A stretch of 64,000 nt of DNA from Aureococcus anophagefferens. Lineage: Eukaryota > Sar > Pelagophyceae > Pelagomonadales > Pelagomonadaceae. A program made the position numbers and the translations under genes. The notes beneath the pieces are model-generated. The model worked only from the letters and a program-made list of their open reading frames with translations. It had not been told where the DNA came from and did not search any database. Location: NCBI RefSeq assembly GCF_000186865.1, contig NW_008705564.1:1841494-1905493 (forward strand), written 5' to 3'. Every line of letters starts with the position of its first letter. The first letter of the stretch is position 1. Positions 11,618 to 46,905 of the stretch are shown here, in pieces.

Positions 11618-14600
11618 ATGTCGAAAAACGTGGAGGACCCCGAGGAGGTGCGGCGCCGGCGCCTCGCGCGCCTCGCGGCGACCCCGCCGAGCGCCGACCC
11701 GGCGCCGCCGCCGGTGTCGTCGCCGCGGCCGCCGCCGTCGCCGGGGCTCGGGAAGGAGGCCGTCGCCGCCGGCGGTGCGGCGTCGTCGTCGCCGCGCCCG
11801 CCGTCGGCGAGTAAGGCCCCGGCCGGAGCGTCGCCGCGGGCCGGCGCGCCCGCGGAGTCGCCGGGAAAGCGGCTCGGGTCCGTCGACAAGCTGCTGCGCC
11901 GCTGCCTCAAGATGGCCGTGACCGACGCCCCCAAGGGCGGCGGGTCCATCTTCGAGGCGCGGCCCGCGGACCTCGGCGGCGCGACCGAGCTGAGCGCGGC
12001 GAACTGCGAGCGCGCGCTCGCGCTCCGCGTCGAGCGCGCGACGGCGTCCGAGGACGCGCTCGGCGTCCTGTCCGACTGCTTCATGCGGCTCCGCGACGAG
12101 GGCCGCAACGCGCGGTCGCGGGGCGACGCCGAGGGCGCCGACGCCGCGGCGAAGGCCGGCGAGGCCTGCGCGTCCCTCGCGGCGCGGTGCCTCGCGGAGC
12201 CCGGGAGCCTCGGCCCCCGGAGCGCGGAGTCGCGCGGCGCGCTCGCGGCGAGCCTCTGCGGCACCAAGGGCGTACCGCTGCGGCCCGAGTTCCTCGCCGT
12301 CGCGTTGCGGGGCGTGGCGCCGGCGAAGCTCGCGGCCGTCGCCGCGCCCGTCGTCGACGGCGCGGTAGCGCTCCTCCGCGCCCAGGGCGCGACGGAGGGC
12401 GAGTCCGCGCGGGCCTGCGGCGCGCTGGCGGCCTTCCTCCAGTCCGGGGGCAAGAAGGTCGCCGGCGACGCCGTGGCCCAGCACTCCATGTTCGCGTCGC
12501 CGCCCCTGGAGGCGCCGGGCGCCATCGACGCGGCGTCGAACCCCTTCGGGGGCCTCGGCGGCGGCGGCGGCGCGCTCGGCGGTCTGCTCCAGGCCATGGC
12601 CGCGGCGGCGGCGGCGAACGGCGGCGCGGCCTTCGAGCAGGGCACGGCGCTGGGCATGGTCATGCGCCTCGGCGGCGCGGACCCGGCGGACGCGACCGCG
12701 CGGTCGGAGCTCGCGGGCTTATTACGGAACCGGCGCGGCGGCGCCGTCGAGGGCTCGCTCGCCCAGCTCGGCGGCCGGGCGCGCGTCGCCCGCGACGCCG
12801 CGGGCAACTTGGTGGACGCGCTCGTCAAGAACGGGCCCACGTCCCGCGACGCGTGCACGTCGTGGTTCGCGGCGCTGCTGAGCCGCTCGAAGGACGCGAA
12901 CGCGATGCAACTCGACCCGCGGAAGGTGCCGTCGGCGGCGACGCGGCTCAACGCCTGCGGGTGCCTGCTGCGCCTCTGCCGCCCGGTCATCGGCAAGGCG
13001 GACCGCGAGGCGAACGTGGCGCGGAACCTGGACTTCCTCGGCCGGAGCGCGCTGGGCCGCGCGGCGTATCCCGACGACCTCACGCGCGTCTACGCGTCCG
13101 GCGAGCAGCCGAGCGCCGACGCCATGGACACGACGGCCGAGTCCGACGACGACATGTACGACGACGACGACGACGACGACGCGGCGTTGAAGGCGGCGCT
13201 GGCGATGTCCAAGGAGCCCGCGGCGGACGCGGACTTCCACTTCGTGACCGTCGTCTTCTTCCTCGCGTTCCGAGCCGTGTGGAAATCAAATCTTCAATCC
13301 GACTTCAATGCGCGCGTATTCGAATGTTTTGACACAAGCTCTTCGGCTGTGCTTCGAGAACTCGACAAGAGCAATCGACTCGTCCAAAAATCAGCCGAAT
13401 CGACTTCGATTTGATCGAGATAGCGAGGTTTGAAGTTTTTGTTGGACAGGGCATTCCACTGGTTGATTTCCACACAGGTTCCGCGCGATGCACCTCGGGC
13501 TCTGCGCGGAGCTGCGGCGCCACGAGGACATGGCGGACCGCCTGGGCCACATGGCGCACCGCCACGGCCACGACCACCCGCAGATCCTCGAGCAGCAGGC
13601 GGCGCACGTCATCGCGGAGGCGTCCTTGCTGGAGGAGACGACGGTCGACGACGCGCTGAGCTTCTGCGGCCTCGCGTGCCGCTGGCTGTTGTCGTTGAGC
13701 GACGACGACCTGCGCAAGTGCCCCGAGTTCTTCCTCGAGGACGTCGCGGACCTGCCGTCGACGCTCGCCAAGTTCCGGCCCCTGGCCGTGAAGCGGTCGC
13801 CGCCGCTCGACGACCTGCTCAAGCTCGTCGCGCGGTGTTTGGGCGCGCGCGAGCGCGTCGTCCGGTCGCCGCACTGCCGCGACAAGCTCGCCCAGGCCCT
13901 CTACGAGTGCTACCTGCCCCGCGACGCGCAGCACGACGGCCGCCACCGCGGCGCGTCGGCGGCGTCGGACGCGAACGTCGGTTTGCTGCTCGCGCCGCCG
14001 ACGGGCGATTTGGCGGACCTGGCGCCCGCGCTGCTCTGGCTCTTCGGCGACGCGGAGCACCTCGGCTTCTACGACGTCACGGCGGCGCGGCTCCGCGTCG
14101 CGGCGCTCGTGAAGCATCTGTGGGCGTCGCCGGCGCACCGCGGCTCGTTCCACGCTTTAACGCGCGACGAGCGCGCGTTCGTGACCTTCGCCAACGGCCT
14201 GCTCAACGAGACGAACCGCCTCGTCGCGGCGACGATGGAGAAGCTGCCGGCGATCCGCGACCACCAGGTGCGCACGGGCGTGCTCAACCCGGGCAACGAC
14301 CCGCAGCTGCTGGAGCTGCGCCGCGACTACGAGAACGCGGGCGAGCAGCGGCGGCAGGAGCTCGACGAGCGGCACCAGGAGGCGGAGCGCTACCTGACTT
14401 CCGATCTACGCTTGTGCACGGAGACGCTGGGCCTCGTGGAGCTGCTCACGGGCGACTCCGTCGTCAGCGACGCGTTCGCGCTCGACTCGCTCCGGCCGCG
14501 GCTCGCGGGCATGCTGCTCTCCGTGATGCGCGCGTTCACGGGCCGCCGGTCCATGGACATCAAGATCGAGCACCCGGAGAAGTACGGCTTCGACCCCAAG

Positions 14601-15080
14601 GACATCCTCTCGCGCGTGGGCCGCATCGCGACGCATTTCGCACAAACGCCCAACTTCGCGGCCGCGCTCGCCGAGAGCGGCTACTACCAGCCGGACCTGC
14701 TTCCGAAGACGGAGGCGACGCTCCGCCGCATCCGCGGCCTCGACGACGCGTCGCTGGCGAACCTGGACGCCTTGGCCGTCGCCGCGGCGTCGGCGAAGGA
14801 CGCGGCGGCGCTCGACGACGGCATCGAGGAGGACGCGCCCGACGAGTTCGTCGACCCGCTGACGTGCGCGATGATGACGGACCCCGTGGCGCTGCCGTCG
14901 GGCCAGGTCGTCGACAACTCGACGATCCAGCAGCACCTCCTCAACGAGCTCACGGACCCCTTCTCGCGCACGCCCATGGAGCCCAAGGACGTCACGCCCC
15001 TCCCGGACCTCAAGGCCAAGATCGAGGCCTGGCTCGCGGACGCGCGCGCGAAGCGCAAGCGAAGCGCCATGGCCACCTAG
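11618..15080 (+). CDS. UBE4: Ubiquitin conjugation factor E4 (UFD2/UBE4), two exons around an introner
   Basis: Exon 1 is 11618-13266 and exon 2 is 13478-15080, giving 1083 residues. E4/UFD2 is a U-box E3/E4 that extends ubiquitin chains on substrates of the Cdc48 pathway. The N-terminal ~200 residues are disordered (MSKNVEDPEEVRRRRLARL, Pro/Ala-rich). The UFD2 core follows, with DFHFVTVVFFLAFRA joining MHLGLCAEL at the splice, then FFLEDVADLPS, RYLTSDLRL, and MDIKIEHPEKYGFDPK. The C-terminal U-box runs from DEFVDPLTCAMMTDPV to LKAKIEAWL. The splice boundaries come from an 8-bp target duplication. Joining GC (13265-13266) to G (13478) gives Ala and an unbroken FFLAFRAMHLGL, the family's conserved motif. 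A low-complexity acidic run (DDDDDDD) lies near residue 510. Both exons keep the same strong codon bias. Confidence 0.93.
13275..13477 (+). mobile_element. Introner element 1 (203 bp) forming the UBE4 intron
   Basis: Terminal inverted repeats are CCGTGTGGAAATCAA at the left and TTGATTTCCACACAG at the right (15 bp, one mismatch). Flanking 8-bp duplications are GTTCCGAG (13267-13274) and GTTCCGCG (13478-13485), 7/8 identical. The intron removed is 13267-13477. Its GT donor comes from the left duplicate and its CAG acceptor is the element's own right end. The core contains CGTCCAAAAATCAGCCGA at 13381, shared by all four introners here. The element is much less G+C-rich than the flanking exons and encodes no protein. 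Confidence 0.93.
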
Positions 15081-15212
15081 GAGGGGCCACCCGAGGCGCG
15101 CCGCGCCCCGCCCTTACCATGCCACCACGCGCGCGGGGTCGCGGGAGGCGCGGGGATTGCCGATCGATGCTCCGTCTCTAGGGCCGCCGCGCGTGCCGCG
15201 GGCGGCGGCCCC

Positions 15213-21520: not shown

Positions 21521-21529
21521 ATGCTGCGA

Positions 21530-22446: not shown

Positions 22447-22450
22447 ATGC

Positions 22451-26159: not shown

Positions 26160-27988
26160 ATGCTTCGTGCTTGCGGCGAGCATCGGGGCCCGCTCGCGGA
26201 GCCTTGGCGGATAAAATTGGGAAGTCGCACCTATCAGCTGCGCTACCCCTTAAGCCTGATGGTGGCGGTGGCCTTCACGCACACTCTCGGCTCAGTGCCA
26301 TGCAGGGAGCTGATTACACTAAAGGCCACCGCCCTCCTTTCGCTCTCCGAGGAAGGCTGGGCGGAAATAGCGCGCAAGCGCATGTCACTGGCCGTGTTGG
26401 GCCGTAGATGGATTGGCTGGCACGGCTTCGGCCGTTGTGACTTTCATCGCTACTTGCTCGCGCGCGCGAAGGCCGCGCGGGACGGCGTCGCGGGCCTGCG
26501 GGTGATGGACGAATTTGTCCCTACGCTTCTCACCCACTTCCAAACGACGGTCGGTTATCACCTCTGCCTTTCGATCCTCCCAACTATCACGAAGATTTTT
26601 AACTGCAAAAATCGGGTAAAAAGCTCCACTTTCGTCGAAACAGGGGACCGCGTCCTCGCGAGCCTCGCGGGCCGCGTTGCGCTGCTCTGCTCGCGCGCGT
26701 TCCTCCTCCACTGCCTTCGCCTCTACATCCTCGAGCCCGAGGTGACGACGGCGACGGACCTCGACCACAAGTACCTGGTGCTCTTCCCGTTGGGCCAGGA
26801 CGCGCTCGGCGGCCGGCAGATGATAGCAGTGATCATGTTCTTGCCGTGCGACGTCGAGGACCTCGACATGGAGACGCCGCGCGGCATCAGCATCCTCGGC
26901 CTCGTCGCCGCGGGGCTCAAGAGCATGGGCCTGCCCTTCGAGGGCGTGAACGTGCACGACCTGATGCCCGTGCTCTACGCCGTCCTCACGGCGCCCGCGT
27001 TCTCCATGGTCAACTGCGAGGCCGCGGGCGTCCTGTCCGGCGTCGCGGACATCACCTCCTGCCTCCACCGCTACGCGACGGCCGACTTCGACGTCGTGCG
27101 CCTCGACGAGGGCAAGTGGCGCGTGACGATCTGCGGCGTCGACGTCGGCGACGACACGCTCTACCGCGAGGACTACCCCTCGGACCTCGCCGTCGACGCG
27201 GCCCGCGCCGGCGACCTGGTCAAGTCGTTCCTCATCTTCGGCCACGCGGGCGGCGCGAGCCCCGAGGCCCGCGAGGCCTTCCAGACCGCGGCCCTCGTTG
27301 CCTGCGTCGACTCTCTCCGCCCCGACAAGCGCCAGGAGCTCTTCTACGTACTGGAGACCGAACGCGTCCGCGCCAGGGCAGCAAAAGGGTGATTCAACGT
27401 CGCTTCAACGTGAGTGTTCCGCGCGCGCGCGTTTCGGAAACAGCACCCGCGCTTCGAGAGCGCTCCGAGAGATGATCGCTCGTCCAAAAATCAGCCGAAA
27501 CGAGCGGAAAACGACCGAGATAGGAGCCTTTGAAGTTGGGAATTTCGCACCCTTTTCCTGCCCAGGTCCGCGCTTGTCCGGAGGCGCCGGAGGTGCGCGT
27601 GGCGCCGACCTTCGACGAGACCATGGAGGGCTTCTTCAACATCTTGCCGCCATGGCACCCGAAGCACCCGGACTTCGCGCGCCAGGGCGACTTCCTCATG
27701 AGCCAAACCAAGTCCGAAATCAAAGGCGTCTCGACGATCTCCCTCGCCGCGTGCGCGCGGCTCTGGCGCGAGACGGTCGAGGCCGACACGCGCGCCGGGC
27801 GGACCTGGCTGTGGCAGCGGGGCATGGAGCTGTCGGAGATCAAGACGCTGCTGCGCCCGATCTGGGACCACGGCGCGCCGGAGCCCGTCGCCGCGGCGGT
27901 CGAGGACACGACGCAGCCCTACGAGTCGGAGGACTCCGACATCGAGCTGGACGACCTCGACGACGAGGCCATCGTCGCGTCCAACTAG
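26160..27988 (+). CDS. Unrecognised protein, two exons around introner 2
   Basis: Exon 1 is 26160-27365 and exon 2 is 27566-27988, giving ~542 residues if the ATG at 26160 is used. The 5' end is uncertain because 26160-26640 is less G+C-biased and less protein-like, and the true start or a missed 5' exon could lie within it. From ~26640 the sequence is clearly coding: RVALLCSRAFLLHCLRLYIL, LDHKYLVLFPLGQDALGG, MIAVIMFLPCDVEDLDME, VRLDEGKWRVTICGVDVGDD, DSLRPDKRQELFYVLETER. Across the splice it continues VRACPEAPEVRVAPTFDET, MEGFFNILPPWHPKHPDFA, and an acidic C-terminus (SDIELDDLDDEA). I recognise no domain. The splice is phase 0 and is fixed by the perfect 8-bp duplication GTCCGCGC. Confidence 0.75.
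27374..27565 (+). mobile_element. Introner element 2 (192 bp), variant terminal repeats
   Basis: The ends are CAGGGCAGCAAAAGGGTG at the left and its near inverted copy CACCCTTTTCCTGCCCAG at the right (two mismatches). A perfect 8-bp duplication GTCCGCGC lies at 27366-27373 and 27566-27573. The intron is 27366-27565 (200 nt), with the GT donor from the duplicate and the CAG acceptor from the element. The terminal repeats differ from the other three introners, but the interior keeps CGTCCAAAAATCAGCCGA at 27481 plus CTTCGAGAGC, so it is a subfamily of the same group. Confidence 0.92.
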
Positions 27989-27989
27989 A

Positions 27990-32213: not shown

Positions 32214-34628
32214 ATGCCGAAGTCGGCGCCCATCGCCAAGGAGTCGTTGCACGACGGCGACGTCGACGCCGAGGACCTGCGGCACGCGGCGTTCGTGGAG
32301 TGCCGCGGCATCCCGCTCGAGGTGGCCCTCGGCGGCGCCATCCGGAGCGGCGCCCTGGACCTGAGCAAGTTCGTCAACTGGGTCGACGCCGTCGGCGCGC
32401 AGCTGGGGCGGCCGCTCACGGGCGAGGACCTGGCGGCGTGCCTCGCCCTGCTGCGGAGCGCGTCCGAGGTCACGCAGCCCGAGGTCGAAACGCGGCTGCG
32501 GACGGTCTTCGACCACTACGCCGTCGACGGCCTCCTCGACGGCCCGCTCCTGGAGCGGCTCCTCGGCGAGGCGAACATCCTGGCGCGCTGCGACGGCCGC
32601 GCGTCCCTGGCCGTCCTCGGCGCCGCCAGGAGCGCCGGCGGCCGCCTCGACGCCGACCGGTTCCTCCGGTTCATCGGCGAACTGAAGCGGGCTATGAGGG
32701 AAGACGAGAAAAACAGGAAGAAGTCGCTGCTGGACTACGTGTCCGATTTCCGCGCGTCCCTCGCGACCGACTCTTGCCTCGGCGGCGGCTGCGTCGCGCC
32801 CGAGGACGGCGACGACGACCCGCCGTCGCCGCCGCGGCGGTCGCTCAAGCGCATGGCGACGGTCAAGGACGTCTCCGACGAGTTCGCGAACATCTTCAAG
32901 GAGAGCCCGGCCCTGCGGCGGCGGCGGTCGTCGAACGTCATCACCCACTTCCAGCGCACCGCGGACGTCCTCGCCGCGCACGACTGCGGCGGCGGCGACG
33001 TGGGCCGGTTCCGGCGGTGGTGCCGGACGTTCGTCCGCTGCGACCCGCGGCGCGCGGTCGCCGACTTCTTCCGGCTCGGCGACGACCGGGGCCCGCTGGG
33101 CTTCCTGAGCCGCGTCGGCGAGCTGCCGCGGGACCCGCCGGCGGCCTTCTTCTCCGTCTGGCGGCCGACGAGCCGGGAGGCGCTCCGCCTCATGCTCCGG
33201 GGCGAGGCGACGGGCAAGAGCCTCAACGTCAAGGGCAAGTCGGCCAAGGTGGGCCGCCTGAGCGGCTTCGTGCCCTTCGTGCAGATCCACGCCGAGGAGC
33301 ACAAGGCGCGCGTGGGCACGCGGCCGCGGAGCGCGCGGATCACCGTCTACTTCCGGAGCGCGGCCGCGCGCGAGCGGGCCGTCGCGGCCGTCGAGGACGT
33401 GCTCGCGGAGACCCAGGCGACGTCGAAGAAGGCGGAGCTCATGCTCCAGGCCCACGCCCTCGACGACCTCGCGCCGGACGTCGTCGAGCGCGTTTTGAAG
33501 GAGAAGATGCTCTCCGTCGCGGACCCGCGGCTCGTGCTCCACGACGACTACGCGCCCGGGGCCTTCGGCGTCGACATGCCCGAGCGCGTCTTCTGGGAGA
33601 CCTTCGTCGAGCGGCGCGACATTTCGCGGAATGGCGACTGGGCCACGGGGCGGCCGTCCGTGCCGGCGTTCATGGACGCGAATTTGGCGAGCACGCGCGG
33701 CGGCGGCGTGCCCAAGACCGTCGTCGTCCAGACCGACGACGACGATCCGCTCAACCCCGTGTCGCTGCTCGTGGCCTACGCCGAGGCGCGCGTGCTGCCC
33801 GTGGCGTCGGACATGGACGCGTTCCTCTTCGGGAGCCGCGGCGTCGTCCCCGAGCAGCTCCCGCGCGACCAGGTGCCCCTCGTGACCTGGCTCCTCGACA
33901 CGCTCGAGGGCGCGCTCTCGGAGGAGCGGGGCGTCGACACGGACTGCTGGACGACGAACTGGCTCGCGATCCTCAAGGAGGAGGGGCGCAAGGGCTTCCC
34001 CCCGACGCCGCCGCCGTACGGCTGGGGCGACGCGCGGACGTCCGCCTGGGTCGAGAAGGCCGTCGAGGCGACGGCGGCCTGCGGCGCCGTGCGCCACGGC
34101 GCCGAGTGCTACAACCTCTACTTCCCCCAGGAGCTCGACGACGAGTACCTCGTGGTCTGGGACGGCTTCCCGGGCGGCTTCTCCTACGTCGACGAGCCGG
34201 GGCTCCGGCGGTTTCTCCTGGACCGCGTCGCCGGCGGCTACGCCTTCCCGCTGAACCCCAAGTGGGTCCTCGCCGACGAGGGCTGGGGCGACGTCCACGA
34301 GGCGCTGCAGCGGAGCGGGGCGCCGGCCTTCTTCCCCGCGGACGTGCTCGCGCGGCTCGACGCGATCCGCGGCCGCCTCGCGGCGCGGAAACAAAACCCG
34401 CACGCGCGGCGCCGCGCGGGGCTCCTCTGCCGCGCCAACTCGGCGACGTCCCTGGACCCGGACCTGGCGCTCATCGCGCTGCACCGCTTCATCACGCTGC
34501 ACCGCGCGAAGACGAAGCTCCACGCGTGCTTCTCGCTCTGCCACATCCGCGGCAAGCTCCACGCGGCCATCCAAAATCAGCTCAGCCAGGGCCCTCCCCG
34601 CCGCTTAGACCTTAAGGCACGTCGCTGA
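32214..34628 (+). CDS. Protein with class II adenylyl-cyclase-like catalytic domain
   Basis: 804 residues from the first ATG in frame (32214). The N-terminal ~200 residues look like a degenerate EF-hand or helical array (VFDHYAVDGLLDG, DADRFLRFIGELKRAM). A Ser/Arg-rich linker and a helical region precede the domain of interest, ~325-690. It contains SLNVKGKSAKVGRLSGFVPF (basic loop, K340), LPVASDMDAFLFG with a D533-x-D535 pair, and RHGAEC (H628) followed within ten residues by YFPQELDDEYLVVWDG. These three blocks, in this order and spacing, match the class II adenylyl cyclase fold best known from secreted bacterial cyclases, whose metal ligands are the two Asp and whose catalytic His lies in the basic loop region. 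No signal peptide is seen. cAMP production is inferred, not shown. Confidence 0.6.
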   Translation: MPKSAPIAKESLHDGDVDAEDLRHAAFVECRGIPLEVALGGAIRSGALDLSKFVNWVDAVGAQLGRPLTGEDLAACLALLRSASEVTQPEVETRLRTVFDHYAVDGLLDGPLLERLLGEANILARCDGRASLAVLGAARSAGGRLDADRFLRFIGELKRAMREDEKNRKKSLLDYVSDFRASLATDSCLGGGCVAPEDGDDDPPSPPRRSLKRMATVKDVSDEFANIFKESPALRRRRSSNVITHFQRTADVLAAHDCGGGDVGRFRRWCRTFVRCDPRRAVADFFRLGDDRGPLGFLSRVGELPRDPPAAFFSVWRPTSREALRLMLRGEATGKSLNVKGKSAKVGRLSGFVPFVQIHAEEHKARVGTRPRSARITVYFRSAAARERAVAAVEDVLAETQATSKKAELMLQAHALDDLAPDVVERVLKEKMLSVADPRLVLHDDYAPGAFGVDMPERVFWETFVERRDISRNGDWATGRPSVPAFMDANLASTRGGGVPKTVVVQTDDDDPLNPVSLLVAYAEARVLPVASDMDAFLFGSRGVVPEQLPRDQVPLVTWLLDTLEGALSEERGVDTDCWTTNWLAILKEEGRKGFPPTPPPYGWGDARTSAWVEKAVEATAACGAVRHGAECYNLYFPQELDDEYLVVWDGFPGGFSYVDEPGLRRFLLDRVAGGYAFPLNPKWVLADEGWGDVHEALQRSGAPAFFPADVLARLDAIRGRLAARKQNPHARRRAGLLCRANSATSLDPDLALIALHRFITLHRAKTKLHACFSLCHIRGKLHAAIQNQLSQGPPRRLDLKARR

Positions 34629-34924
34629 CGCCGCCCGTCGCGCGGTTGGTACGCGGGGGTCCCCCGGTGAGTATAAGAACGCGGCCGGCGCCTTAAAGTA
34701 CCGCCGAACTCGCACGTCGCGCCGCGGTCGCGCGGCCCGTCGGGCGCGTTTCGCGCGCGCGTGTCGGATATCTTGGAGGTTCGCACGAATCACCACCGGC
34801 CCTTCGCCGACTGCTTTCCTGCCGCGAGCTCTCCGGGTTTCGGGTACTGCCTGCGCTGAGCCCTCGTGAACCAAGGAGAACCAAGGGCTCGAAGTTTCGT
34901 TGATAACTGCACAAAGCAGCCACG

Positions 34925-37900
34925 ATGCACTCGGCGGAGAGCATCTCTGGAGGTCCTTCTGGGCTGCTGGGGCGGCGCGCGCAGCGCATGCACAAAGGGC
35001 GCCACATCTTCTGTCGCGCGGCCTCCATGGCGCGCATCAGCGGCCGCGAGCGCGCATCATTGGTGCGGCGGGTCGGCGCGGCGGTGGAGCGCCACGCCCC
35101 GAAGATCATGAAAATGTCGATGCTCGTCGGCGCGATGGCCTGCCTCGCGGGGACGCGCTCGTCGTCGTGCATGCCGCGGCCCGTGGACCTCGACGAGACG
35201 CTGGAGCCGACCTTCACGGACGGCGCGCGCAAGTACTGGCACCTGCGGTTCACATGTCCGTGCAGCGAGAAGACGGTGACCGTCCGGAAATACCTCCGGA
35301 AGCTGTCCGACGGCGACGACGTGGAGAAGGAGAAGGAGGCGGCGCTGGAGCGGCTCTGGGCGGGGCTCATCGATGAGCACGGAGAACACCTGGGCCTCGG
35401 GGTCGTCGGCGGCGACGGCGCGATGGACGAGGACGCGGCGCCCGAGGAGGCGGGGGTCGTCTGCCAGCCGTGCTCCCCGCCGAGCTCACCCGGGGCGAAG
35501 CGAGGGCGTGTTGCAGCGCAGCACCCGACGCCACAGTCGATGCGAGACGCACGAGAAGCCCCTGCGGCGGAGCCCGAACCGGCGCCGGAGCCCGAGCCGG
35601 CGCCGGAGCCCGACGACGGACCCGAGCCGCCTCTGCCGCCGGCGCCCCCGGCCCCACGGCGCTCGACACGCCCGCATCATGCTCCTGTCGACACCTACCA
35701 ACCCCCTGTTCCCCGTGACCGGACGGCGTTCGCTGCCGCTCTACGTCGCCAGTACGACTCGACGCCGCGGCAGCCAGCAGCAGCCCGCGGGCCCGTCGTT
35801 TCGAGCGACCGCATCGACGAGGGCGTCGGCTCCAGCGACTCCAGCGACGAGGGCTGCGCGGGCTGCGCCAAGTGCGTGACGAAGGACGCGCTGCTCCGCG
35901 AGGCCGACATGGAGATTCAGAGCCTCCGCGCGAAGTTGTCGACGCCTGGGGCCGCGTGGGCCAAGACCGTCGAGGCGCTCCCGAACCGCACGCAGGGCAT
36001 GGCGAAGAAGGGTTTGGCGCTCATGGCGCGCCTCGAGCCGACGAGCACGCCGCGCGCGAACGGCGGACCCGACGGTAGCGGATCCGACGACGACTCCAGC
36101 GACGATCCGGAGCCCCCCCGGCCGCGGCGCCGGGTCACAGCCGCTCGTGTCGACGAGCCATCGGCGGGGCCGGCGACAGAGGCGAAGGCCCGTGACGTGA
36201 ATCCTGTGCTCGCGGCCCTCTTCGTGCACGGCGGAGGCGACCAGAGCCGGACCGCGGCGATCCTCCAGGCCGTCGTCGCGCGAGCAGGGAAGCTGCTGCG
36301 ACTGGACTTGAAGGAGATCAAGGCCCTACGCGCCATGGGCCGGGCGATCAAGGGCTACTTCTCGCTCGCGGCCCTTCCGAACGGCGGGACGCGTCGGAAG
36401 TATGCCCAGCAGAAGGTGGACGCGGTGATGGAGGCTGTAACGCCGGCGGATGGCGCTGCCAAGAACTTGCTCCGGGGCATCTCGCGGGTCTGCTGCGGCG
36501 ACAACGTGAGCCACAGCGTCATCGGTCGCTTCTCGAACGCGGCGGATCGACGGAAGCTACAAGACGACGCGGGCAAGCTCGCACGCCACCGCATGCGGGC
36601 TCTGCGCTCTGATCTCGTCGACCTCGCCTGTGCTCGTGAGTATTGGCACCAGAACGACGACGTGCGACTCGACACTTTCGCGGGGAGGTGCACCAAGAAG
36701 GTGAAGATCGTCACGGTCCAGGTCGACTCCGACGGGCGGAGGACGCTCGTCGTGAAGGAGGAGCACCACCAGCGCCACACGAAGCACGCGGGCGATTTGG
36801 AGATCTACCAGGCCTTCCTGAAGTCGGCGGGCTACGCCTCTCACCTCGCCGCCCATCCCAGCCACAAGATCTCCTTCACGCTCTTCAAGCGGGCCAAGTG
36901 CCCGTGCATCGCTGTGTGAAATCAAATCTTCAACCCGACTTCAGCACCTCCGCTGCGCTTCGAGAACTCGATGAGAGCAATCGATCCGTCCAAAAATCAG
37001 CCGAATCGACTTCGATTTGACCGAGCTAGAGAATTTCAAAGTTTGGTCGGGACGTCCCAAACCAGTCGTTGATTTGCACGTGTACAGGTGCATCGGCGAG
37101 CCGCACCAGCGCGAGTGCGCCGACGAGATCAAGACCAGCATGAGGGAACGACTGCTCGCTCTGAACCGCCTGCGCCTCTCGGTCAAAGAACGGCAAGCGA
37201 CGTGCCAGGGCCCAGTCTGCCGCGCACGGCGTGCAGCCGTCGACGCACGTTCTGCGGCGCCCGAGGCCTCGTACCTCCAGGCAGAGCAGACCGCCGCCTA
37301 CAAATTCAGCAAGATCCACGAACGATCGAATCTGTCCGCGGGCATGTTCTCAAGCTGCATGCTCTGCCCGGCAATACGCTGTGAAGATCTCGAGCTGACG
37401 ACCGACGATGACGAGCGTGTGTTGATGCACAGGAAGGAGTGCGCCTACGGTGATTGCGATGAATGTGGCGTCGACCAGCGCTTTTTTCGTTGCCCCTGCG
37501 AGGACACTGACGTCGAGGTGAAGCTCCGCGAGTACCGGCTCCAGCCCCGGACGGTGAAAGGCGAAGACGACGAGGGCAACAGTATCAGCTCCACCATGGC
37601 CGTCAAGGAGCTCACGGAGGTCATGGTCACGGGCAGTGAGCTCCTCACGAAAATTGAAGCCGCGGCAACAGAGTATTTCACGCACTGCTGGAATTGCCGT
37701 TGGCCAACACGGCTCGGCTGAACGACATGCATAAGTTCACCGATACCGAGCTATTCATTCAGACCGATTTCGCTGCGCAGATCTCCAACGCTGCCCAGGA
37801 CAACCTCTGCTGCACACACAGGAACCATACGAATCTCGACGTGTTCGTCGTAGCATCGGATCCACGACTCGTCGACGTGACGGTGAAGCATGCCGACGGG

Positions 37901-39320
37901 TCCTCTTCCTTCGTCAAGAAACGCATCACAGACAACCACGCGTGGAAATTCTACGCCGGTGCCTCGGGCAAGGGCAAAGATAACGACTACTTCTTCCATC
38001 ACGCCGCTCTGACCCATCTGGTGGATTTCTACGTGGCGAAACGAGTCAAAGACAACAAGCCGCCTTTGACCCGGGTCATTCTCTGGACCGACGGATGCCC
38101 CGGCCAATATATGTGCAAAGAGAACTTCGTGAAGGTCGCCGCCTTTTGGTCGAAAAAGGGCATCGAGCTGACGCATCGATTTGCCAGTGCCCGCGTCCCC
38201 CGAAGATGGCCCGAGCCTGCGAGACGATGGCCCCATAGGCGGCTACGAGTGATTTCAAAGGTGTGCATGACACTATAGGCAAGGAGGACCGCCGCTGGAT
38301 CAATGCGAACGCGCGGCGCGACGTCATCAGCGTCCCCCAGCCCTACGACCTCTTCACAGCGGTCCGCGATGGTCGGCCGAAGCCGAGCATGGACTGGAAC
38401 GCCTCACCTACGATTCTGGCGAAGAAGTGCGACAGACGGCGTCCAAATCCGCGCAGATCGACGCGAAGACGTCCAAATCGCGTAGGTCGACGCTCTCCTT
38501 GGACAAGTACTTCTACCGGTTCATCACGTGGACCCAGGACGACCCCATCGGAGTCGACGACGACGACGTGTTCTTCGCGGACAAGTCTGCCAAATGGAGC
38601 GCCTCGCCCGTCGAAGGCTGCAAGTCTGATCGAGAGTACCGGTCTGGTTCGTCTCACGCTGTCGACGACCTGCGGCGCCGCGCCCAGCCCTGCTCGTGCT
38701 CCAAGTGCCGCGTGAAGGACTACGACAACTGCCGCTACAAGGCGTGGACCGCGGCCCCCGAGATGCGCCAGAGCGACGGCTGGACCCGCACGACCATCAT
38801 CCTGAAGCCGCCCTCCGGCGATGACCGCTCGAGCGCGCGCGTCATCGCCCAGGGCCTGGCGGAGAAGGACGCTCGTCTCGCTGCCCTCGCTCCGAAGATC
38901 CGCAAGGGCGATGTGGTCGCCTTGGGCATCTCTCAGAGCGAACGTGACGCCCAGGGCGTCGACTTCTACCTCGCCAAGGTCGTCGTGCCACCGGCGCGCG
39001 CGGACAACCAACGTCGGGTCAACGGCTCGGGGCGCGACGGCTGGAACATCAAGAAGGGCGAGTTCTGCTTGACCGTGCGCTGGTTCGACCTGAAGCCGTG
39101 CGGCTACTACGAGGACTACGGGTCCCAGGACGAGCAGCTCCTCGAGATGGTCATCGCGGTCGGCGACGGCGCCGCGCTCGTGCTCGAGCCCGCCCCTCGG
39201 AAGGGCAGGGCGCGTGGGGCCCCGGCCCAGTTCCAGCTCGCCAAGGCGTCCGAAGCGGCCATCCACAACGAGAACTTGGACAAGTACGTCGACCGGGCCG
39301 CGGCGGGCTCATCTGCCTGA
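34925..39320 (+). pseudogene. Transposase-like gene with introner 3 and frame breaks
   Basis: Exon 1 is 34925-36903 (MHSAESISGGPSGLL; RFTCPCSEKTVTVRKYLRK; a long Pro/Glu linker; LKEIKALRAMGRAIKGYFSL). Exon 2 begins at 37088 (CIGEPHQRECADEIKTSMRE, DECGVDQRFFRCPCEDTDVE, EYFTHCWNCRW). Near 37690-37720 the frame shifts to one reading DMHKFTDTELFIQTDFAAQ, VILWTDGCPGQYMCKENFV and GIELTHRFA (to ~38185). After a 56- to 74-nt intron-like gap it reads FKGVHDTIGKEDRRWINAN. Another shift near 38430 leads to SLDKYFYRFITWTQDDPIG and KIRKGDVVALGISQSERD, ending at 39320. The spaced acids (TDF, WTDG, GVHD) and H-R-F-A...K-G pattern resemble a DDE/DDD-type transposase core with a C-terminal chromatin-like domain. 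I cannot name the superfamily. Frame breaks suggest decay, but unrecognised small introns could rescue it. Confidence 0.55.
36912..37087 (+). mobile_element. Introner element 3 (176 bp) in the transposase-like gene
   Basis: The left end is CTGTGTGAAATCAA and the right end TTGATTTGCACGTGTACAG, a decayed inverted pair. A perfect 8-bp duplication GTGCATCG lies at 36904-36911 and 37088-37095. The intron is 36904-37087 (184 nt), GT donor from the duplicate and CAG from the element. Splicing joins AKCP to CIGEPHQRE in frame. The core CGTCCAAAAATCAGCCGA is at 36987. It is ~27 bp shorter than elements 1 and 4, with the loss lying between CGACTTCA and CTTCGAGAAC. Confidence 0.93.
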
Positions 39321-39629
39321 GAATCGGCGCCGAAACGCGCGCGCCGCGCGACGCCGCGGTCGACGCGCGGACGCCTCGCCGACCGCAGCACGTTCCACGT
39401 GGTTTATCGCACGGACCCGCCTTTGCCCACGCCTTTTATGGTCCTAATGACGCCTCTTTCCCCCGTGGCGCGGGCCGCTACTCGGCGGTCCGTGCGCGCT
39501 GGGGCCTATGTGTCCGGCCGTGTCCCCACTGATCTGATTTTGGATGCGGCGCGGCACTCGCCGCCGCCGCCGCCGCCCAGGGCGACGCGCGCCCCCGGGG
39601 GGACGTAGCGACGGTTTAATGCGGCGGGA
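39321..39629. other. ~310-bp convergent intergenic region
   Basis: It lies between the end of the transposase-like gene and the stop of the MYND gene. A short GCCGCCGCC run sits near 39563. No gene, structured repeat or inverted terminus of a larger element could be identified. Confidence 0.5.
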
Positions 39630-41831
39630 TTAGCCGCGCGCCAGGCGTCGCCAGGAATCGGGGTCGGCGTCGTCCGCGCGGGCGGCCTCGGCGCTGGTCC
39701 CGCTCCTCAGGCGGACCTCGCCGGCTTCGGCGCGGTCCCGCCACTTCTTCTTCTCAGCGTCGTCGAGCACCATCCATTTCCTCAAGAGGTCATTGGTCGG
39801 AAGCGGCATGACGCCGACACTCATAGCGCGGCATAAGGTTGCGCAGTACTTGTCGTGAATGGGCGCGTGCGCTTTGTGGCACGCTTCGCTGCAATACTTG
39901 GTCGTGCGGCAGTCCGGGCACGACCGGAAGTCTATCCCGCGATTCTGGCAGAAGTTTCCGCAACATAGCTCGAATTGATTGCGCATCGGATGCTTGCTTC
40001 GTAGCTCGTCGCGACTCATCTCCATCCGCCCGCCAGTTGCTTTCACATACGCCTGGATGGAATCGATCTCCTGTTCCACGATGGCTTCTTCCGCGGCGCG
40101 CGCGAGCACCGCACGCGAGACCTCTTTACAACGAGGCTGATATGCAGCCGATGAGGAGTCCTCTGAATCAAGTTGATCGACCGCCGTCCGCATATTCCGA
40201 AGCGTGCAGAACAAGTTGCACTCCTCTCGATGCCCGCCCCGCCAGTCCACCTTTTGACACTCTTTGCTGCAGTAGCGCGTCGTCTTACAGCCCTCGCACT
40301 TCAGAGACCCCGCCTTGCCGCAATTCCGACAGTTCGTCGACGCGATCTTGATGGGCACGGATCGCGAGCCACGGATCGGCGCGTCATCCGGGCCGGCGAC
40401 GATGACGAAGCGACGGTTCTCGTGGTGACGGCTCAGGTCATTGATGCGCACTTGTAGCGTCGCCGCGGCGCCCGGGTCCATCTCGAGCATCGGTTTCGAC
40501 TCCTCCGCGAGCTCGAAGAGCGGCACCCGTCGGTTCATGATCTCGCTCTGAAAGAAGCCGACCTGGATCTCGCCGGAGCTGCAGATCGGCTCCGCGAGGG
40601 GCTCGCCCGCGGCCTCGAGGACCAGCCAGAGCGCGAGGCTCACGTGCTTTTTGGTCACATTCGACACGGCGAGGTGCATCCAGTTGCCGTCTTCCAAGTC
40701 CGTAAACCAATCGACGTACCCATGATGCATGTCGCCCTCGGAGCACTTCTTTCCGCGCTTGTTCCGGGCAATGATTGACGCGATGAGAACGGCCGCCGCC
40801 TCGGGCGCCGGGTGCTCGCGGACCTCCGGCGGCCGAAACGAGAGGTTTGCCGCCGACGTGATGTCGATGGGCACGGACCGGCAGCCGTGGATGGGCGCGT
40901 CCACCGGGCCGGCGACGATGATGAAACGCTGGTTCTGGTGGCAGTAGCTGAAGTCGTTGATGCGCACCTTGAGCGTCACCGCGGCGCCCGGGCCCATCTC
41001 GAGCATCGGCTTCGACTCCTCCGCGAGCTCGAAGAGCGGCACCCGGCGGTTCATGATCTCGCTCTGGAAAAAGTGGACCTGGATCTCGCCGGAGCTGCAG
41101 AGCGGGTCCGTGATGGGCATCGTCGCCGCCTCGTAGAGCAGCCAGAGCGCGAGGCTCACGTGCTTTTTGGTCACGTTCGACACGGCGAGGTACATCCAGT
41201 TGCCGTCTTCCATATCCGTGAACCATTCGACGCACCCTTGATTCATGCCGCCCTCGGAACATTTCAGAAATGATTCCTCTCCGCGCTTGTTCCAGGCAGT
41301 GAGAGACGATATTGATACGGCTGTCGACTGGAGCGCCGGGTCGTCGCGAAGCTTCGGCTCCGGCGGCGGCGCCGAGCGGACCGCCTCGCGCGCCGTCGGC
41401 TCCGGAGGCGCGGTGCGGACGGGACCCTCGGAGGCCGGCATCGAGCGCAGGGCCTTTGAGATCACCTCTCGCGTCGCCTCGCAGCTTTCGCACTTCATGC
41501 CGAACGTCCAATGCTCGACCGCCATGGGGTCTTCGGGGCCCGCGGGCGTCATGAGCTCAAAGCCGTGATCCACGCAGAGATGGGCCTTGCATATTGGGCA
41601 GCAGCGAAAGAGTGCGGGCCCGGTCGCGCTTACGCAATCGCCACACCGAGCCCGCGCGCATCCCGGGAACATACAGACCATGGCTGGAGGCGCGAAATAG
41701 TCGCTCTGGCAGTCCTCACATTTCAAATGTGGGCTGACCCACGACGGATCGCGCGCTTCCTCGTCAGTGCCCGGCGCCCGCTTCAGTGCATTGGCGGCCG
41801 CCTTCTTCGGGTTGCGCGACTTCTTGCCCAT
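39630..41831 (-). CDS. Protein with two MYND zinc fingers and a duplicated central domain
   Basis: 733 residues from the ATG at 41831 (MGKKSRNPKKAA). The N-terminus has Cys pairs in B-box/RING-like order (HLKCEDC, CARARCGDC, RCCPICKAHLCVDHG). Two ~150-residue copies of an unnamed beta-rich domain follow at ~190-325 and ~362-497. They share almost identical blocks: WFTDxEDGNWMxLAVSNVTK, KHVSLALWL, CSSGEIQV, FFQSEIMNRRVPLFELAEES, VIVAGPxDAPI. Then come two MYND fingers: CRNCGKAGSLKCEGCKTTRY with CSKECQKVDW (~501-538) and SCPDCRTTKYCSEACHKAH (~645-665). MYND fingers bind proline-rich partners. The tail has a DDAEKKKWRDRA segment. Role unknown. Confidence 0.88.
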   Translation of the reverse strand: MGKKSRNPKKAAANALKRAPGTDEEARDPSWVSPHLKCEDCQSDYFAPPAMVCMFPGCARARCGDCVSATGPALFRCCPICKAHLCVDHGFELMTPAGPEDPMAVEHWTFGMKCESCEATREVISKALRSMPASEGPVRTAPPEPTAREAVRSAPPPEPKLRDDPALQSTAVSISSLTAWNKRGEESFLKCSEGGMNQGCVEWFTDMEDGNWMYLAVSNVTKKHVSLALWLLYEAATMPITDPLCSSGEIQVHFFQSEIMNRRVPLFELAEESKPMLEMGPGAAVTLKVRINDFSYCHQNQRFIIVAGPVDAPIHGCRSVPIDITSAANLSFRPPEVREHPAPEAAAVLIASIIARNKRGKKCSEGDMHHGYVDWFTDLEDGNWMHLAVSNVTKKHVSLALWLVLEAAGEPLAEPICSSGEIQVGFFQSEIMNRRVPLFELAEESKPMLEMDPGAAATLQVRINDLSRHHENRRFVIVAGPDDAPIRGSRSVPIKIASTNCRNCGKAGSLKCEGCKTTRYCSKECQKVDWRGGHREECNLFCTLRNMRTAVDQLDSEDSSSAAYQPRCKEVSRAVLARAAEEAIVEQEIDSIQAYVKATGGRMEMSRDELRSKHPMRNQFELCCGNFCQNRGIDFRSCPDCRTTKYCSEACHKAHAPIHDKYCATLCRAMSVGVMPLPTNDLLRKWMVLDDAEKKKWRDRAEAGEVRLRSGTSAEAARADDADPDSWRRLARG

Positions 41832-41969
41832 CGCTTTCACGGACGCGCAGGCGCCCGGGCACGATGTAGCTCCGCGGGCACTTGGTGGTGACGCGGCTAA
41901 GCTGTCCGGAGCGTCGACGGGGCGGGCGCGTCAGTTAGCTCTCACGAGGGGCCTGTCTCGGGCACGACC

Positions 41970-42518: not shown

Positions 42519-42701
42519 GGGGTTGGCGTTGGCGCGGGGGCCCCACCGAAGCTCTTGTGAGGGTCCCGTAATAGCCCGCGAGCCAGCCTTGCTCCACGAG
42601 GCACGCGCCGGAAGAGATGGGCAGCCCGCGAGAGCCACCAGACTGAAATCGGTGGCTTCAATGCGACACCAAGATGAAGTTCAACGAGCTTCGTTTACTC
42701 C

Positions 42702-45700
42702 CTACTTGCGGTCGAGGGCGGCCTTGGACTTGGGCCAGGGCGCGCCGGCGCCCGGCGCCTTGCGCTTCCAGGCCGAGGCGGGCCCCTTGGGCTCCCGGGG
42801 CTGGCCCCAGAGGCCGCGGCGCTTCCGGAGGGACGCGACGTCGCCGCCGACGCCCGCGACGCCCGCGTCGTCGCAGATCTTCTTGAGGGACCGCGCGAGG
42901 CGCACGCGCTCGAGGCGCGTCGCGCACTGGAGCGCGAGGCAGGACGGGACGAGCGCGCCGTCCTTGTCCTTCTTGCCGCTGTCGTAGTCAACGCCGAGCG
43001 TGCAGCCCTCGCGGAACGAGAAGCCGAAGGCGTCGTTCTTGGCCACGGACTTGGGGCTCGACGCGGAAAAGGCGAGCTTCTCCTTGCTCACGAAGGCGCC
43101 GTTGTGGTACGCGAGCTGCTTCGCGTCGTCGAGGAGCGCCGCGCGATCCTGGCCCGTGATGCCGACGACGGCGCCGACCTTGAAGCCCTGCTTGCTGAAG
43201 ACGCCGCCGTCGGTCCAGGAGAGCGCGCCGTCGGCGTAGCGCAGGTGCACGGTCTTGCACTTGATGGCCTCGCCGACGGGGTTCAGGTGGTTGTGGCTGA
43301 ACTTCTCGATCTCGTAATAGGGCGCCGCGCCCAACTTCCCGCACACCTCGGCGAACTCGGCGTCGCTCGTCCTGAGCGCCTTCTGGTAGGCGCCGAACTT
43401 GCGGAAGAGGGGCTGGATCTTCGCGACGAGCGCCGTCCGCTTCTCGACGTAGGCCCGCACCGCGAGGAGCCGCCGGACGTGTTTCTCCAACGCGACGACG
43501 CGCGGCCGCAGGGACGCCGCGTAGGTCGCGCCGCCGCGCGCCCGAAACTCCTTGGCGACGGTCGTCTTCAGTGTCGCGTACCGAAAGAGCCGGGCGACGG
43601 CGAGCGCGCGCCGGACGACCGTCTGCGCGCGGACGCACCAGCGGATCCGCGGCTTCCCGAAGTCGCGGAACGTCTGGTCGAAGTTCTTGCGCGCGATCGC
43701 GCGCCGCGCCGCCGCCGTGGCCAGCACCGCCGCGCGGATCGCCCGGCGGCGCAGGGCGACGGCGTTGTAGGTCCGCGCGCGCGTCTGAAGGGTCGTGACC
43801 TTCGCGACGGTCGCCAAAAAGATCGTCCGCTGGCGCTTGCGGCGCACCTCCTTCTGGACCCAGGCGACGACGGCGGGGAGCGCCTGCGTGCGCGCCGTCT
43901 CCAACGCGAAGAGGCACGTGGGGTCCTTGACGAAGACCTTGGTCGCGCCGACGCGGAAGTCGACGTTTTCTTGGTACGCGAACGCCGGCAGCCCGAGGTC
44001 GAAGTGGGCGATGGTCGCCGGTTTGCCGCCGGCGAGGATCGCCCGGCAGCGGTCCGCGGGGCTCAAATCGACGCCCCGCCGGTTCCACGTCGCCTCGGCC
44101 ACGAGCAGGTAGCGCCGGTGGAAGTTCTCGAACGTGTCTCGAAAGCAGTAGCCCGCGCGGCGCACGCGGACGTTCTCCAGGAGCCCGAGGTACTGGACCT
44201 GGTGCTCGACGCGCGCGTCGTCGACAACCCGCGGCTTCTTGACCTCGTTGGGCTTCACCGCGCGGACGTAGTGCGGCCGGCAGAGTCCCAGCGCGTCGAG
44301 CAACCCGTGGATCTGCGTCTTGTACTGCTTCGAGATCGTCGGCGGCGCGCGCTGGCCCTTGTCGCCGGGCGTCGCCCGGCGGTCCAGGAACAGGGTCTTG
44401 GCGACGCCGTTGCCCGCCTCGAGGACGACGTCGACGAGGTCCTGGTAGAGCGTGTCGCGATTCTTGTCGATGAAGTTCCGGCAGTCGTAGGCGACGTCGC
44501 CCGCGTAGTGCTTCACGCCGAAGACCGTCTTGCCCGCCCGCAGTCGCTCCTTGGGGACGAAGTGGGCGTGGGGGGCGCAGGACCGCTCCAGGTTCGACAC
44601 GAGGCGGTCCGGCGACCCCTCCTTGTAGGCGCACTGCTCGTCGAGGAGCGCGAGCACGGAGCCCTGCTTCGCCTCGACGAGCGCGACGACGGGCGCGTTG
44701 TCGAAGTACTCGATGTGCTCCCAGGGGATGCCCTCCTTGTCGTACTCCGCCTGCTCCTCCTTGATCGTCAATTCGATGAAGAACTGCTGGAGCATCTCGT
44801 TCGTGTAGTTGATGAAGAACTGCTCGAGGTCGTTCGTCGCCAGGATCTCGAAGCCGTAGATGTCCAGGATGCCCAAGGTCTTGTGGTCGCCGACGTAGTT
44901 GATCGTGCCGTTGAGGTGGCGCACGACCCAGTCGAAGAGGCGCCGGTAGAGCTCCTTGGCCAGCGTGTGGCGGTTGTCGGACGCCGCGGCGCCGTCGAGG
45001 GGCACGGCGAAGGTCGACGCCCGCGAGCCCATCTTCGCGAGCTTGTGGGACGTGAGCGCCGTCGCCAGCAGGGCGCCGTCGACGTCGAGGAGCGCGGCCG
45101 CGGCCGCGAGGCCCGCGTCGTCCGCGGCGATGCCCGCGGGCGCGTCCGCGCCGCGGTCCTCGAAGGCGACGTTGCCCAGATTGACGACGGCGCCGAGCAC
45201 CTTGAAGAACTGGGCCGCGTCGTTGAAGGCGACGCCGACGCCGTCGACGGACGTCTTGAGCTCGTCGAAGGCCGCGGCGTCGTCGACGCCCGACGCCGTC
45301 CGCGCCTCGCGCATGACGCACGCGTAGGCCGCCGGCCCGCCCTCGAGGAGCCGGTAGGTGGCGCGCTCGGCCTTGGACGCGCCGGCGAGGAGCTGGTGGA
45401 CGATGTGGAAGTTGCGCTCGCCGTCGGCCTGCGCCGCGACGCGCGACTTCTCGAGCAAATAGTTCGAGATCTTCCCGCCCGCGACGGCGCCCCGGAAGTC
45501 GAACTGGAGCTCCATGTACTTGCCGAAGCGGCTCGAGTTGTCGTTGCGCACGGTCTTCGCGTTGCCCAGGGCCTCGAGGACGGGGTTGCTCATGAGGAGC
45601 TTGTCCTTGACGTCCGCGGCCGAGTGCTTCAGCAGCGGGTTCTCGAAGCCCACGAGCGACGCCGCGCGGGACCCGCGCACCGCCGCCCCGAGCCCGGCGA

Positions 45701-46905
45701 CGACGGACGACCCGCGGCGCCGCGGCGCGCCGTCGCCGTCGTCGCGGTCGCCGTAGACGTCCCACATCGTCGCGTGCTGCTCCGCGAGCGTCGCGACGAA
45801 GCCGGACCGCTTCGTCGCCTCGGCGATCTCGTGCTCGCAGCAGGCGATGTAGGTGCCGAAGGCCGGCGCGTCCAGACCCCGCACGCCCTTCTTCATCACG
45901 GCGACCTTTTCGAAGAGTTTCTCGAGGAACGCGTCGCTCAGCACGCCCTCGTCGACGGCCGTCTCGAGGTCGGGCACCCGCCGGACGGCGTCGAGGCCGA
46001 GCGTCGCCGCGCCGTCGGCCATGTCCGCGAAGGCCTCGGCCATGGCGTCCGCCTCGTCGTCCTTCTTCCTCGCCTTGCCGCCTGTGTGGAAATCAACCAG
46101 TGAGCTGGGACGTCGGGGCCAAACTTCAGAAATCTCTAGCTCGATCAAATCGAAGTCGATTCGGCTGATTTTTGGACGAATCGATTGCTCTCGTCGAGTT
46201 CTCGAAGCACAGCTGAAGAGTCTGGTCCGAACCGTTCGATTACGCGCACATTGAAGTCGGGTTGAAGATTTGATTTCCACACAGCTTGCCGCCGATCTTC
46301 TTCACGCGCTTCTGCCGCTTCTTCGCGTCGACCTTGGCGACGGCCGCGGCGACCTTTTTCGCGACGGACGCGGCGTCCTCGCCGGCGGGCGGCGGCGGCG
46401 GGGCGTCGGCCGCGGGCGCCGCGGCGGCGGGCGGCGGCGGCGGCGCGGCGGCCCGCTTCGCCGCCCTCGCCTCGACCTTTTTGGCCGCTACCGTCACGAA
46501 GTTCATGAGCTGCTTCGCCGCCTCCGTCTTCCCCGCGCCGGACTCGCCCGTCACGAGCACGCACTGGTCCTCGCCGTCCCTGACCAGGGCGTTGTAGGCC
46601 GCGGCGCCGACGCCGAAGATGTGCGGCTTCTGCAGGTGCAGGATGGCCTCCTGGTAGTGCAGGGCCACGTCCTCGCCGTAGATGGACTTGCCGCCCCGCT
46701 CGAGCACGCGGTAGGGGTTCACGGCGATCAGGACCTCGCCGATGGCCGTGTACATCTCGTCCCGCTTGTAGCGCGCCGACAGCTCCTTTGAGAGGCCGCC
46801 GTGCGTGAGCTGGGCCTCCTCCAGGAGGATGAGGTCGTCCTTCATGTCCCGCTCGTAGAGCTCGGCATCCTGCGGGCTTAGCCCGCCGCTCAGGGCCTGC
46901 GCCAT
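42702..46905 (-). CDS. Myosin heavy chain, two exons, introner in loop 1
   Basis: Exon 1 is 46905-46293 and exon 2 is 46081-42702 (minus strand), giving 1330 residues. The motor has P-loop GESGAGKT (120-127), switch I NDNSSRFG (~384-391), switch II LDIYGFE (~610-616), the relay KEEQAEYDKEGIPW, and the actin-interface HYVRAVKPNE. An extra ~210 residues sit in loop 1 between the P-loop helix and the conserved SNPVLEALGNAKT: Ala/Pro/Lys-rich, then helical. Loop 1 tunes ADP release. The neck (QTRARTYNAVALRRRAIRA and similar) holds several poor IQ motifs. The tail (ALSWTDGGVFSKQGFKVGA) resembles a class I TH1 lipid-binding tail. The splice is fixed by the 8-bp duplication and restores KKIGGKARKK. 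It diverges from the esterase gene by 120 bp. Confidence 0.92.
46082..46284 (-). mobile_element. Introner element 4 (203 bp) forming the myosin intron
   Basis: On the minus strand the element begins CTGTGTGGAAATCAA and ends TTGATTTCCACACAG, a perfect 15-bp inverted pair. A perfect 8-bp duplication (CTTGCCGC on the plus strand, GCGGCAAG in the gene's sense) lies at 46074-46081 and 46285-46292. Restoring the frame requires a GC donor at the start of the first duplicate, so this is a 211-nt GC-AG intron. Length and interior match element 1 closely. The core CGTCCAAAAATCAGCCGA lies at 46161-46178, minus sense. Confidence 0.95.

Follow-up and report, generated by a model that had tools for sequence, protein, structure and literature searches.

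Short elements with an acceptor at one end and a donor-like target duplicate at the other are candidate introns in Aureococcus anophagefferens genes

Introduction

The origin of introns is a long-standing question, and in the genome of Aureococcus anophagefferens it can be approached by counting. The introners of this alga are a known kind of intron-making element and have already been described, reportedly by Huff, Zilberman and Roy (Nature, 2016). A 64,000-nt window of the genome, the whole stretch of DNA analysed here, contains four short elements lying within genes between copies of an 8-bp target duplicate, raising the question of which splice site is brought by the element, which is drawn from the target, and whether the orientation of the element matters.

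Results

Four elements in the window and their host genes

The four elements (E1-E4) were all found where the preliminary description had placed them, in gene sense as described (Table 1). They are 203, 192, 176 and 203 bp long, all four end in CAG at the gene-sense 3′ end, and the internal box TCCAAAAATCAGCCGA is present in gene sense in each. The predicted introns are 211, 200, 184 and 211 nt, inserted in phases 2, 0, 2 and 1 as judged from the joined empty sites, and each contains two or three in-frame stops in the phase of its own gene. The earlier account of these elements (176-203 bp, 8-bp duplicates beginning GT or GC, CAG, and the four phases) was correct except for the mismatch in the E1 duplicate. 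It had also likened the intron lengths to nucleosome size; the published nucleosome claim for Aureococcus introners is reportedly about how far apart insertions lie, not about how long the elements are. Another conceivable donor in these insertions would be the GT inside CTGTGTGG.

Table 1 Positions of the four elements, their target duplicates and internal boxes in the window
Feature	Position	Strand	Remark
E1 intron-side target duplicate GTTCCGAG	13267..13274	+	putative co-opted donor GT
E1, 203-bp family, ends CCGTGTGGAAATC...GATTTCCACACAG	13275..13477	+	predicted acceptor CAG 13475-13477
E1 exon-side duplicate GTTCCGCG	13478..13485	+	one mismatch with GTTCCGAG, so not exact
E1 internal box TCCAAAAATCAGCCGA	13383..13398	+	
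E2 intron-side duplicate GTCCGCGC	27366..27373	+	
E2, 192-bp family, ends CAGGGCAG...CTGCCCAG	27374..27565	+	predicted acceptor CAG
E2 exon-side duplicate GTCCGCGC	27566..27573	+	
E2 internal box	27483..27498	+	
E3 intron-side duplicate GTGCATCG	36904..36911	+	
E3, 176-bp diverged relative of 203-bp family	36912..37087	+	predicted acceptor CAG
E3 exon-side duplicate GTGCATCG	37088..37095	+	
E3 internal box	36989..37004	+	
E4 intron-side duplicate GCGGCAAG	46285..46292	-	putative co-opted donor GC
E4, 203-bp family, perfect CTGTGTGGAAATC terminal repeats	46082..46284	-	predicted acceptor CAG 46084-46082, gene sense
E4 exon-side duplicate GCGGCAAG	46074..46081	-	
E4 internal box	46161..46176	-	

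Gene strand was taken from a self-trained coding model, and for two of the four hosts in the window there is support from Pfam. The E1 junction lies inside a single matched stretch of the Ufd2P_core domain (7.9e-48), and the alignments with four out of four relatives of this host cross the junction with no gap there. In two stretches the joined E4 protein resembles Myosin_head (3e-80); the one stretch located in the search output lies downstream of the junction. A Pfam search gave no match for E2 and E3. For one window protein, nine of ten relatives were named A. anophagefferens, with 87-100% identity over 12-58% of the query, which confirms this species as the origin of the window.

The gene that hosts E3 belongs to a transposon-like element of 5 kb present in multiple copies, from which four open frames gave nothing in Pfam at 0.1. 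When the whole window was segmented, the stretch downstream of E3 did not receive a coding call, although the joined E3 site did. A locus on another contig (L068) has the same element and duplicate as E3, with a 1501-bp match at 99.7%; judged by this match, E3 is not an independent insertion, L068 and E3 being one insertion copied, and both are included in the coding copies counted below, where this insertion is counted twice. Among nine Aureococcus-named protein models for the E3 host, compared by the words searched, one agrees with the prediction, six disagree and two contain neither side of the junction. The public gene model P0005 (AURANDRAFT_64401), which represents either the E3 host or a copy nearly identical to it, has the predicted exon junction; P0006, P0010, P0011 and P0013 stop two residues past AKCPCI, where exon 1 ends, as though the reading had run on into the element; and P0008 and P0014 contain the beginning of exon 2 but not the predicted join.

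Copies across the genome

The exact 16-mer internal box occurs 2255 times in the whole genome (1146 + 1109), exceeding chance, and its reversed control does not occur at all. In 114 fetched copies, with two mismatches to the box allowed, ends were found in 105, the nine without clear ends being dropped, and the 8-bp duplicate was exact in 78 of the 105 and within one mismatch in 92, making these short, multicopy elements with terminal inverted repeats and constant-length target duplicates. Removing four copies without a consistent frame, two of them GY-first and two not, left 101 coding copies; one copy in the 105 (L049) has a perfect duplicate starting GG and no consistent frame. None of the 105 was called non-coding, a call made at 29% of random sites in the window and 12% in the fetched loci. 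A single search key, as recommended in the preliminary description, serves only in part: it finds E1 and E4, misses E2, E3 and the 192-bp family, and makes one unrelated two-mismatch match at 2048.

The target duplicate begins with GY on the gene strand

In gene sense, the duplicate begins with GY (GT or GC) in 100 of the 101 coding copies, against a background of 194/1004 random coding sites (19%), and this holds across duplicate quality: 75/75 for exact duplicates, 13/14 with one mismatch and 12/12 with more. The sole non-GY copy (C16:600486, apparently GG) is also the sole one without CAG; by eye, its boundary looks to be off by one base, with a true duplicate probably starting GC, and it was kept as a miss in the counts. 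Without recourse to predicted genes, a genome-wide count gave 902 GY-first copies and 28 others among the 930 strict copies of the 192-bp family, and only 3 of 349 strict 203-bp copies had neither G first nor C last, where about 143 were expected from base frequencies. The GY side tracks the gene strand, with sense copies GY-first in 43/43 and antisense copies RC-last in 57/58. GT and GC occur as putative donors in a ratio of 46:54 against a background of 1800:6459 (p=1.4e-7), a threefold over-representation of GT that would be expected were GT the better donor. Phases 0, 1 and 2 number 45, 25 and 31 over the 101 copies, with no departure from the occurrence of GY in codons (p=0.34). The proposed GY-first rule and the freedom of phase, first noticed on the four window elements, both hold in these larger sets.

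The acceptor lies at the element's end in either orientation

The proposal that the element itself bears CAG likewise stands, the triplet being present in 100/101 coding copies, but its companion claim, that elements always lie in sense, fails: by the internal box, 43 coding copies are sense and 58 antisense, the outcome that the preliminary description had itself named as refuting. Read along the gene, antisense copies too have a GY-first duplicate and a terminal CAG, apart from one apparent exception. The 203-bp family ends CTG...CAG, a potential acceptor at either end, and therefore gives CAG in both orientations. In 61 copies, leaving out one with a misplaced boundary, the gene-5′ end was not CTG in 14 and the gene-3′ end was not CAG in none (p=5e-5), whereas at positions 4-12 both ends vary alike (55 and 68 changes in 62 copies). 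Read in gene sense, members of the 192-bp family run CAG...CAG with the interior in either direction: exactly one acceptor end was found in 930/936 strict copies in which both test positions were A or T, and in 100 listed strict copies examined by eye the interior ran in the box direction in 35 and reversed in 65, three of the 100 being absent from the GY list. As the splice signal is located in their ends, the elements would become introns in either orientation.

Discussion

Taking these observations together, we consider that the elements are very probably introners, namely short non-autonomous DNA transposons whose insertion into an exon creates a removable intron, with the donor co-opted from the duplicate and the acceptor carried. 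Insertion would generate the 8-bp duplicate, which would be co-opted as donor where its first two gene-sense bases are GT or GC, and the gene-3′ end of the element would supply the acceptor CAG. As a matter of sequence arithmetic, removal of the element with one duplicate restores the coding sequence, splicing itself being inferred; frame closure of this sort was discounted as evidence of splicing because every exact duplicate produces it, regardless of splice site. The 203-bp family would offer an acceptor at both ends and the 192-bp family one, and interior orientation would be immaterial because the terminal repeat itself serves as acceptor module. The idea repeated in the preliminary description, of short non-autonomous transposons carrying one splice site and taking the other from the duplicate, is borne out as a sequence constraint by GY and CAG each in 100/101 copies.

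The GY rule might instead reflect the transposase's own target preference, for example for a palindromic GYNNNNRC target, rather than a record of splicing. Copies of the 192-bp family are GY-first at 902/930 regardless of genes, and RC is modestly enriched at the far end of the duplicate (286/930 strict 192-bp copies, 31%, and 32/101 coding copies, against 21% in coding sequence). A symmetric preference, however, predicts RC as often as GY, and the actual 31% versus 97% rules out a purely symmetric form; moreover, the two ends of the 203-bp family are alike, yet the GY side follows the gene strand, which a transposase could not read from the ends. We regard target preference as an unlikely account of the rule. 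With the far-end bias so weak and the GY side following the gene strand, the GY bias seems mainly to reflect the survival of those insertions that can be spliced, superimposed on a slight symmetric target preference. That process by itself leaves the distribution unexplained, since random insertion with purging of bad exonic copies only predicts common non-coding copies and 0/105 were seen.

It is still less probable that the elements hold both splice sites, with a GT inside CTGT/GTGG...CAG and 12 nt added to the mRNA. A GT is indeed present in the 5′ end of the 203-bp family, and the Fig. 2F legend of PMC9860276 gives a precedent in Aureococcus sp. (TARA MAG) introner family 4, which shares the genus and the 8-bp duplicate and differs in carrying both splice sites, lengthening the mRNA by 12 bp, of which 4 bp come from the element and 8 bp from the duplicate. 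Such an arrangement would leave the first two bases of the duplicate free, but they are GY in 100/101 copies, and the 192-bp consensus has no GT within its first 15 bases. That the elements are ordinary genic repeats, unspliced and retained in RNA or in pseudogenes, is hardly credible: four public E3-host models do end just inside the element, but a retained element would interrupt all four window genes with two or three in-frame stops each, the conserved E1 host gene has a domain that runs unbroken across the junction, and the acceptor triplet is kept while the similar opposite end drifts.

The introner reading agrees with known systems. Passages in PMC7789003 and PMC10228655 describe A. anophagefferens introners with terminal inverted repeats, constant-length direct repeats and canonical splice motifs, and with insertion in both orientations and splice-site co-option, respectively, so that the present elements match them in species, terminal repeats, fixed-length duplicates and orientation as far as those passages go. 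The Fig. 2B legend of PMC9860276 assigns Symbiodinium microadriaticum introners the same division, a carried 3′ splice site with the 5′ site from the duplicate, and terminal inverted repeats; the duplicates are 4 bp there and 8 bp here. As for mobility, the 8-bp duplicate and the CAGGG of the 192-bp family, at one end only, recall hAT elements, whereas the CTGTG start of the 203-bp family does not fit a hAT terminus. Miniature elements of the hAT superfamily make 8-bp duplicates and have terminal repeats beginning C/T-A-A/G-N-G. Searches of the genome for the hAT (PF05699) and KDZ (PF18758) transposases gave no match, and control genomes were blank as well, making both results uninformative.

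We tentatively speculate that the splice polarity of the 192-bp family resides only in its outermost bases and that the interior was inverted more than once, perhaps by recombination between inverted repeats, so that one transposon makes introns in both directions; with no non-coding copies seen, this could mean exon-aimed insertion followed by selection keeping GY.

With search keys adjusted to cover the two families in either orientation, over two thousand candidate intron gains come within reach, by the box count. Each duplicate can be read at two ends, the far RC (31%) reflecting the preference of the transposase and the near GY (97%) what splicing would let survive. If the absence of non-coding copies holds genome-wide, it would point to exon-aimed insertion, beyond what selection alone gives.

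Sampling of introner copies

The internal box, a 16-mer common to both element families, has 2255 exact matches in the genome, against none for its reversed control; 100 of these places were listed. We fetched 93 loci: 23 were picked for strict ends or for similarity to the window element E1, and 70 cover the first 76 entries listed along contig C1. Together with the window they gave 114 distinct box copies with up to two mismatches. End sequences defined the element boundaries, which could move slightly if the duplicates then matched better, and the first bases of the duplicate were not used as such; a first boundary pass had used duplicates, and the counts rest on the later end-sequence boundaries. 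A self-trained three-periodic coding model, applied to joined empty sites from which the element and one 8-bp duplicate are removed, supplied gene strand and phase. Clear ends were found in 105 of the 114 copies, and 101 of these, in contrast to the other 4, lie in one continuous coding frame.

The four elements of the window

The window (C4:1841494-1905493; ~70% G+C) comes from an assembly of 49.05 Mb and 86 contigs. The duplicates, lengths, acceptors and phases that the preliminary description gave for E1 to E4 were all recovered, the E1 duplicate with one mismatch. Coding segments in the unjoined window end within ~10 bases of E1 and E4 and within ~20 of E2, although the flanks had been among the model's seeds. 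E1 breaks a Ufd2P_core domain whose match runs through the junction, and all four relatives aligned to its host are gapless there. The protein joined at E4 has two stretches of Myosin_head match; the one with a known position lies downstream of the junction.

E3 is not an independent case, since the same insertion is present at a fetched locus, L068, inside a multicopy transposon-like element of ~5 kb. That this element is multicopy follows from ten relatives of its first open frame, nine of them named Aureococcus anophagefferens (87-100% identity over 12-58% of the query); E3 sits within it and was copied along with it at L068. Among public gene models, P0005 joins the E3 exons at the predicted place; P0006, P0010, P0011 and P0013 stop two residues beyond the exon-1 end AKCPCI, and P0008 and P0014 contain the exon-2 start with the predicted join absent. 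We count these conflicting models against the intron reading. When the whole window was segmented, the sequence downstream of E3 received no coding call.

The 5-kb element has a possible 4-bp duplicate, CGGC, and its four open frames gave no Pfam match. One of its ends (34570-34581, TCCAAAATCAGC) is similar to the internal box of E3 (36989-37004, TCCAAAAATCAGC), a likeness that may be chance.

Positions of the elements and neighbouring features (window coordinates unless a contig is named)
Feature	Position	Strand	Remarks
E1	13275-13477	+	203-bp family
E2	27374-27565	+	192-bp family
E3	36912-37087	+	diverged 176-bp relative of the 203-bp family
E4	46082-46284	-	203-bp family
Transposon-like element, ~5 kb	34568-39546		perfect 13-bp inverted ends CATCCAAAATCAG
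MYND-finger protein gene	39633-41930	-	contains 300-nt direct repeat
Repeat copies in MYND-finger gene	40335-40634, 40851-41150		84% alike
Mixed end/interior 192-bp copies, examples	C1:3092517, C2:736410, C2:123319		by eye, among matches listed

Introners of Aureococcus anophagefferens that have inverted repeats, are flanked by duplicates and co-opt a splice site were reportedly described by Huff et al. in 2016. Between them, three further papers report these features (PMC10228655, PMC7789003, PMC9860276), so the elements here are filed as already known; one states insertion in both orientations (PMC10228655).

GY and CAG hold in both orientations

The proposal that elements always lie in sense orientation fails, as 58 of the 101 coding copies are antisense by the internal box and 43 sense (p=0.16 against equality); the C1 list-order sample alone has 27 sense and 44 antisense (p=0.057), with GY first and CAG last in 71/71. 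The proposed GY start held: read in gene sense, 54 duplicates begin GC, 46 GT and one GG, against a GY background of 19.5% of window coding positions and of 194/1004 random coding sites, and the GT:GC ratio is three times that of coding sequence. The remaining positions broadly match the coding background, deviating most clearly at positions 7-8 and at the base that follows the duplicate. A further copy outside these 101, L049 (C1:859090), is an exception to the rule; 193 bp long, it has a perfect duplicate that begins GG and no consistent coding frame around it, possibly a failed or non-intronic insertion. Phase, as described, is not fixed: phases 0/1/2 number 45/25/31, matching GY supply in codons (p=0.34) and differing a little from an even spread (p=0.04).

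In the 203-bp family, length variants included, the two ends are alike (CTGTGTGG...CCACACAG), and the element thus gives CAG in both orientations (30 sense, 32 antisense coding copies); the gene-5′ end departs from CTG in 14/61 and the gene-3′ end from CAG in 0/61. In the 192-bp family CAG stands at the gene-3′ end in 39/39 and at the gene-5′ end in 35/39, and the interior faces either way (13 sense, 26 antisense), bases 2 and 191 alone fully separating the two directions (12 and 24 exact-length copies compared). The interior tree needs 6 direction changes, at least 2 forced by well supported branches; such support is limited to 3 of its 36 inner branches, and the bootstrap had not settled. 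Recombination between the inverted repeats would produce such switches. Two separate base changes per switch would do so too, though the intermediates expected on that route number at most 6/936: permitting A or T at bases 2 and 191 gave 936 sites (control 2) against 930 strict ones, leaving only 6 with none or two acceptor ends, a count that excludes copies with C or G there (4/39 in the sample, all at the gene-5′ end). Mixed copies, seen by eye among the matches listed, pair an end module from one polarity class with the other's interior, which suggests exchange between copies.

Origin of the GY bias

Genome-wide counts were made without gene calls. Strict 192-bp ends (CAGGGCAG, 176 bases, CTGCCCAG) gave 930 copies (reversed control, 1), of which 902 start with GY and 286 carry RC, the opposite-strand GY, at duplicate positions 7-8; the 28 that do not start with GY tell against the reading. 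Among strict 203-bp copies, 3/349 lack both a leading G and a closing C. Were the transposase itself to pick GY on a symmetric target, far-end RC should be as frequent as GY, but it reaches 31% against 97%. RC nevertheless exceeds its 21% expectation (p=3e-12); this excess would then measure a weak intrinsic target preference, and the remaining GY bias probably reflects survival of spliceable insertions.

If survival were the only cause, many copies should sit in non-coding DNA, since they are not purged there. None of the 105 copies was non-coding by coding-model calls (101 coding, 4 mixed), against 441/1500 random sites in the window (p ~7e-16) and 38/318 in the fetched loci (p ~2e-5), the latter being the closer but weaker control. 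One survey describes introners as gene-enriched in 161/175 genomes and those of Aureococcus as preferring linkers (PMC9860276). Within the reach of the coding model and the sampled regions, the lack of non-coding copies despite the survival-only expectation indicates that insertion is probably aimed at genes in addition to survival.
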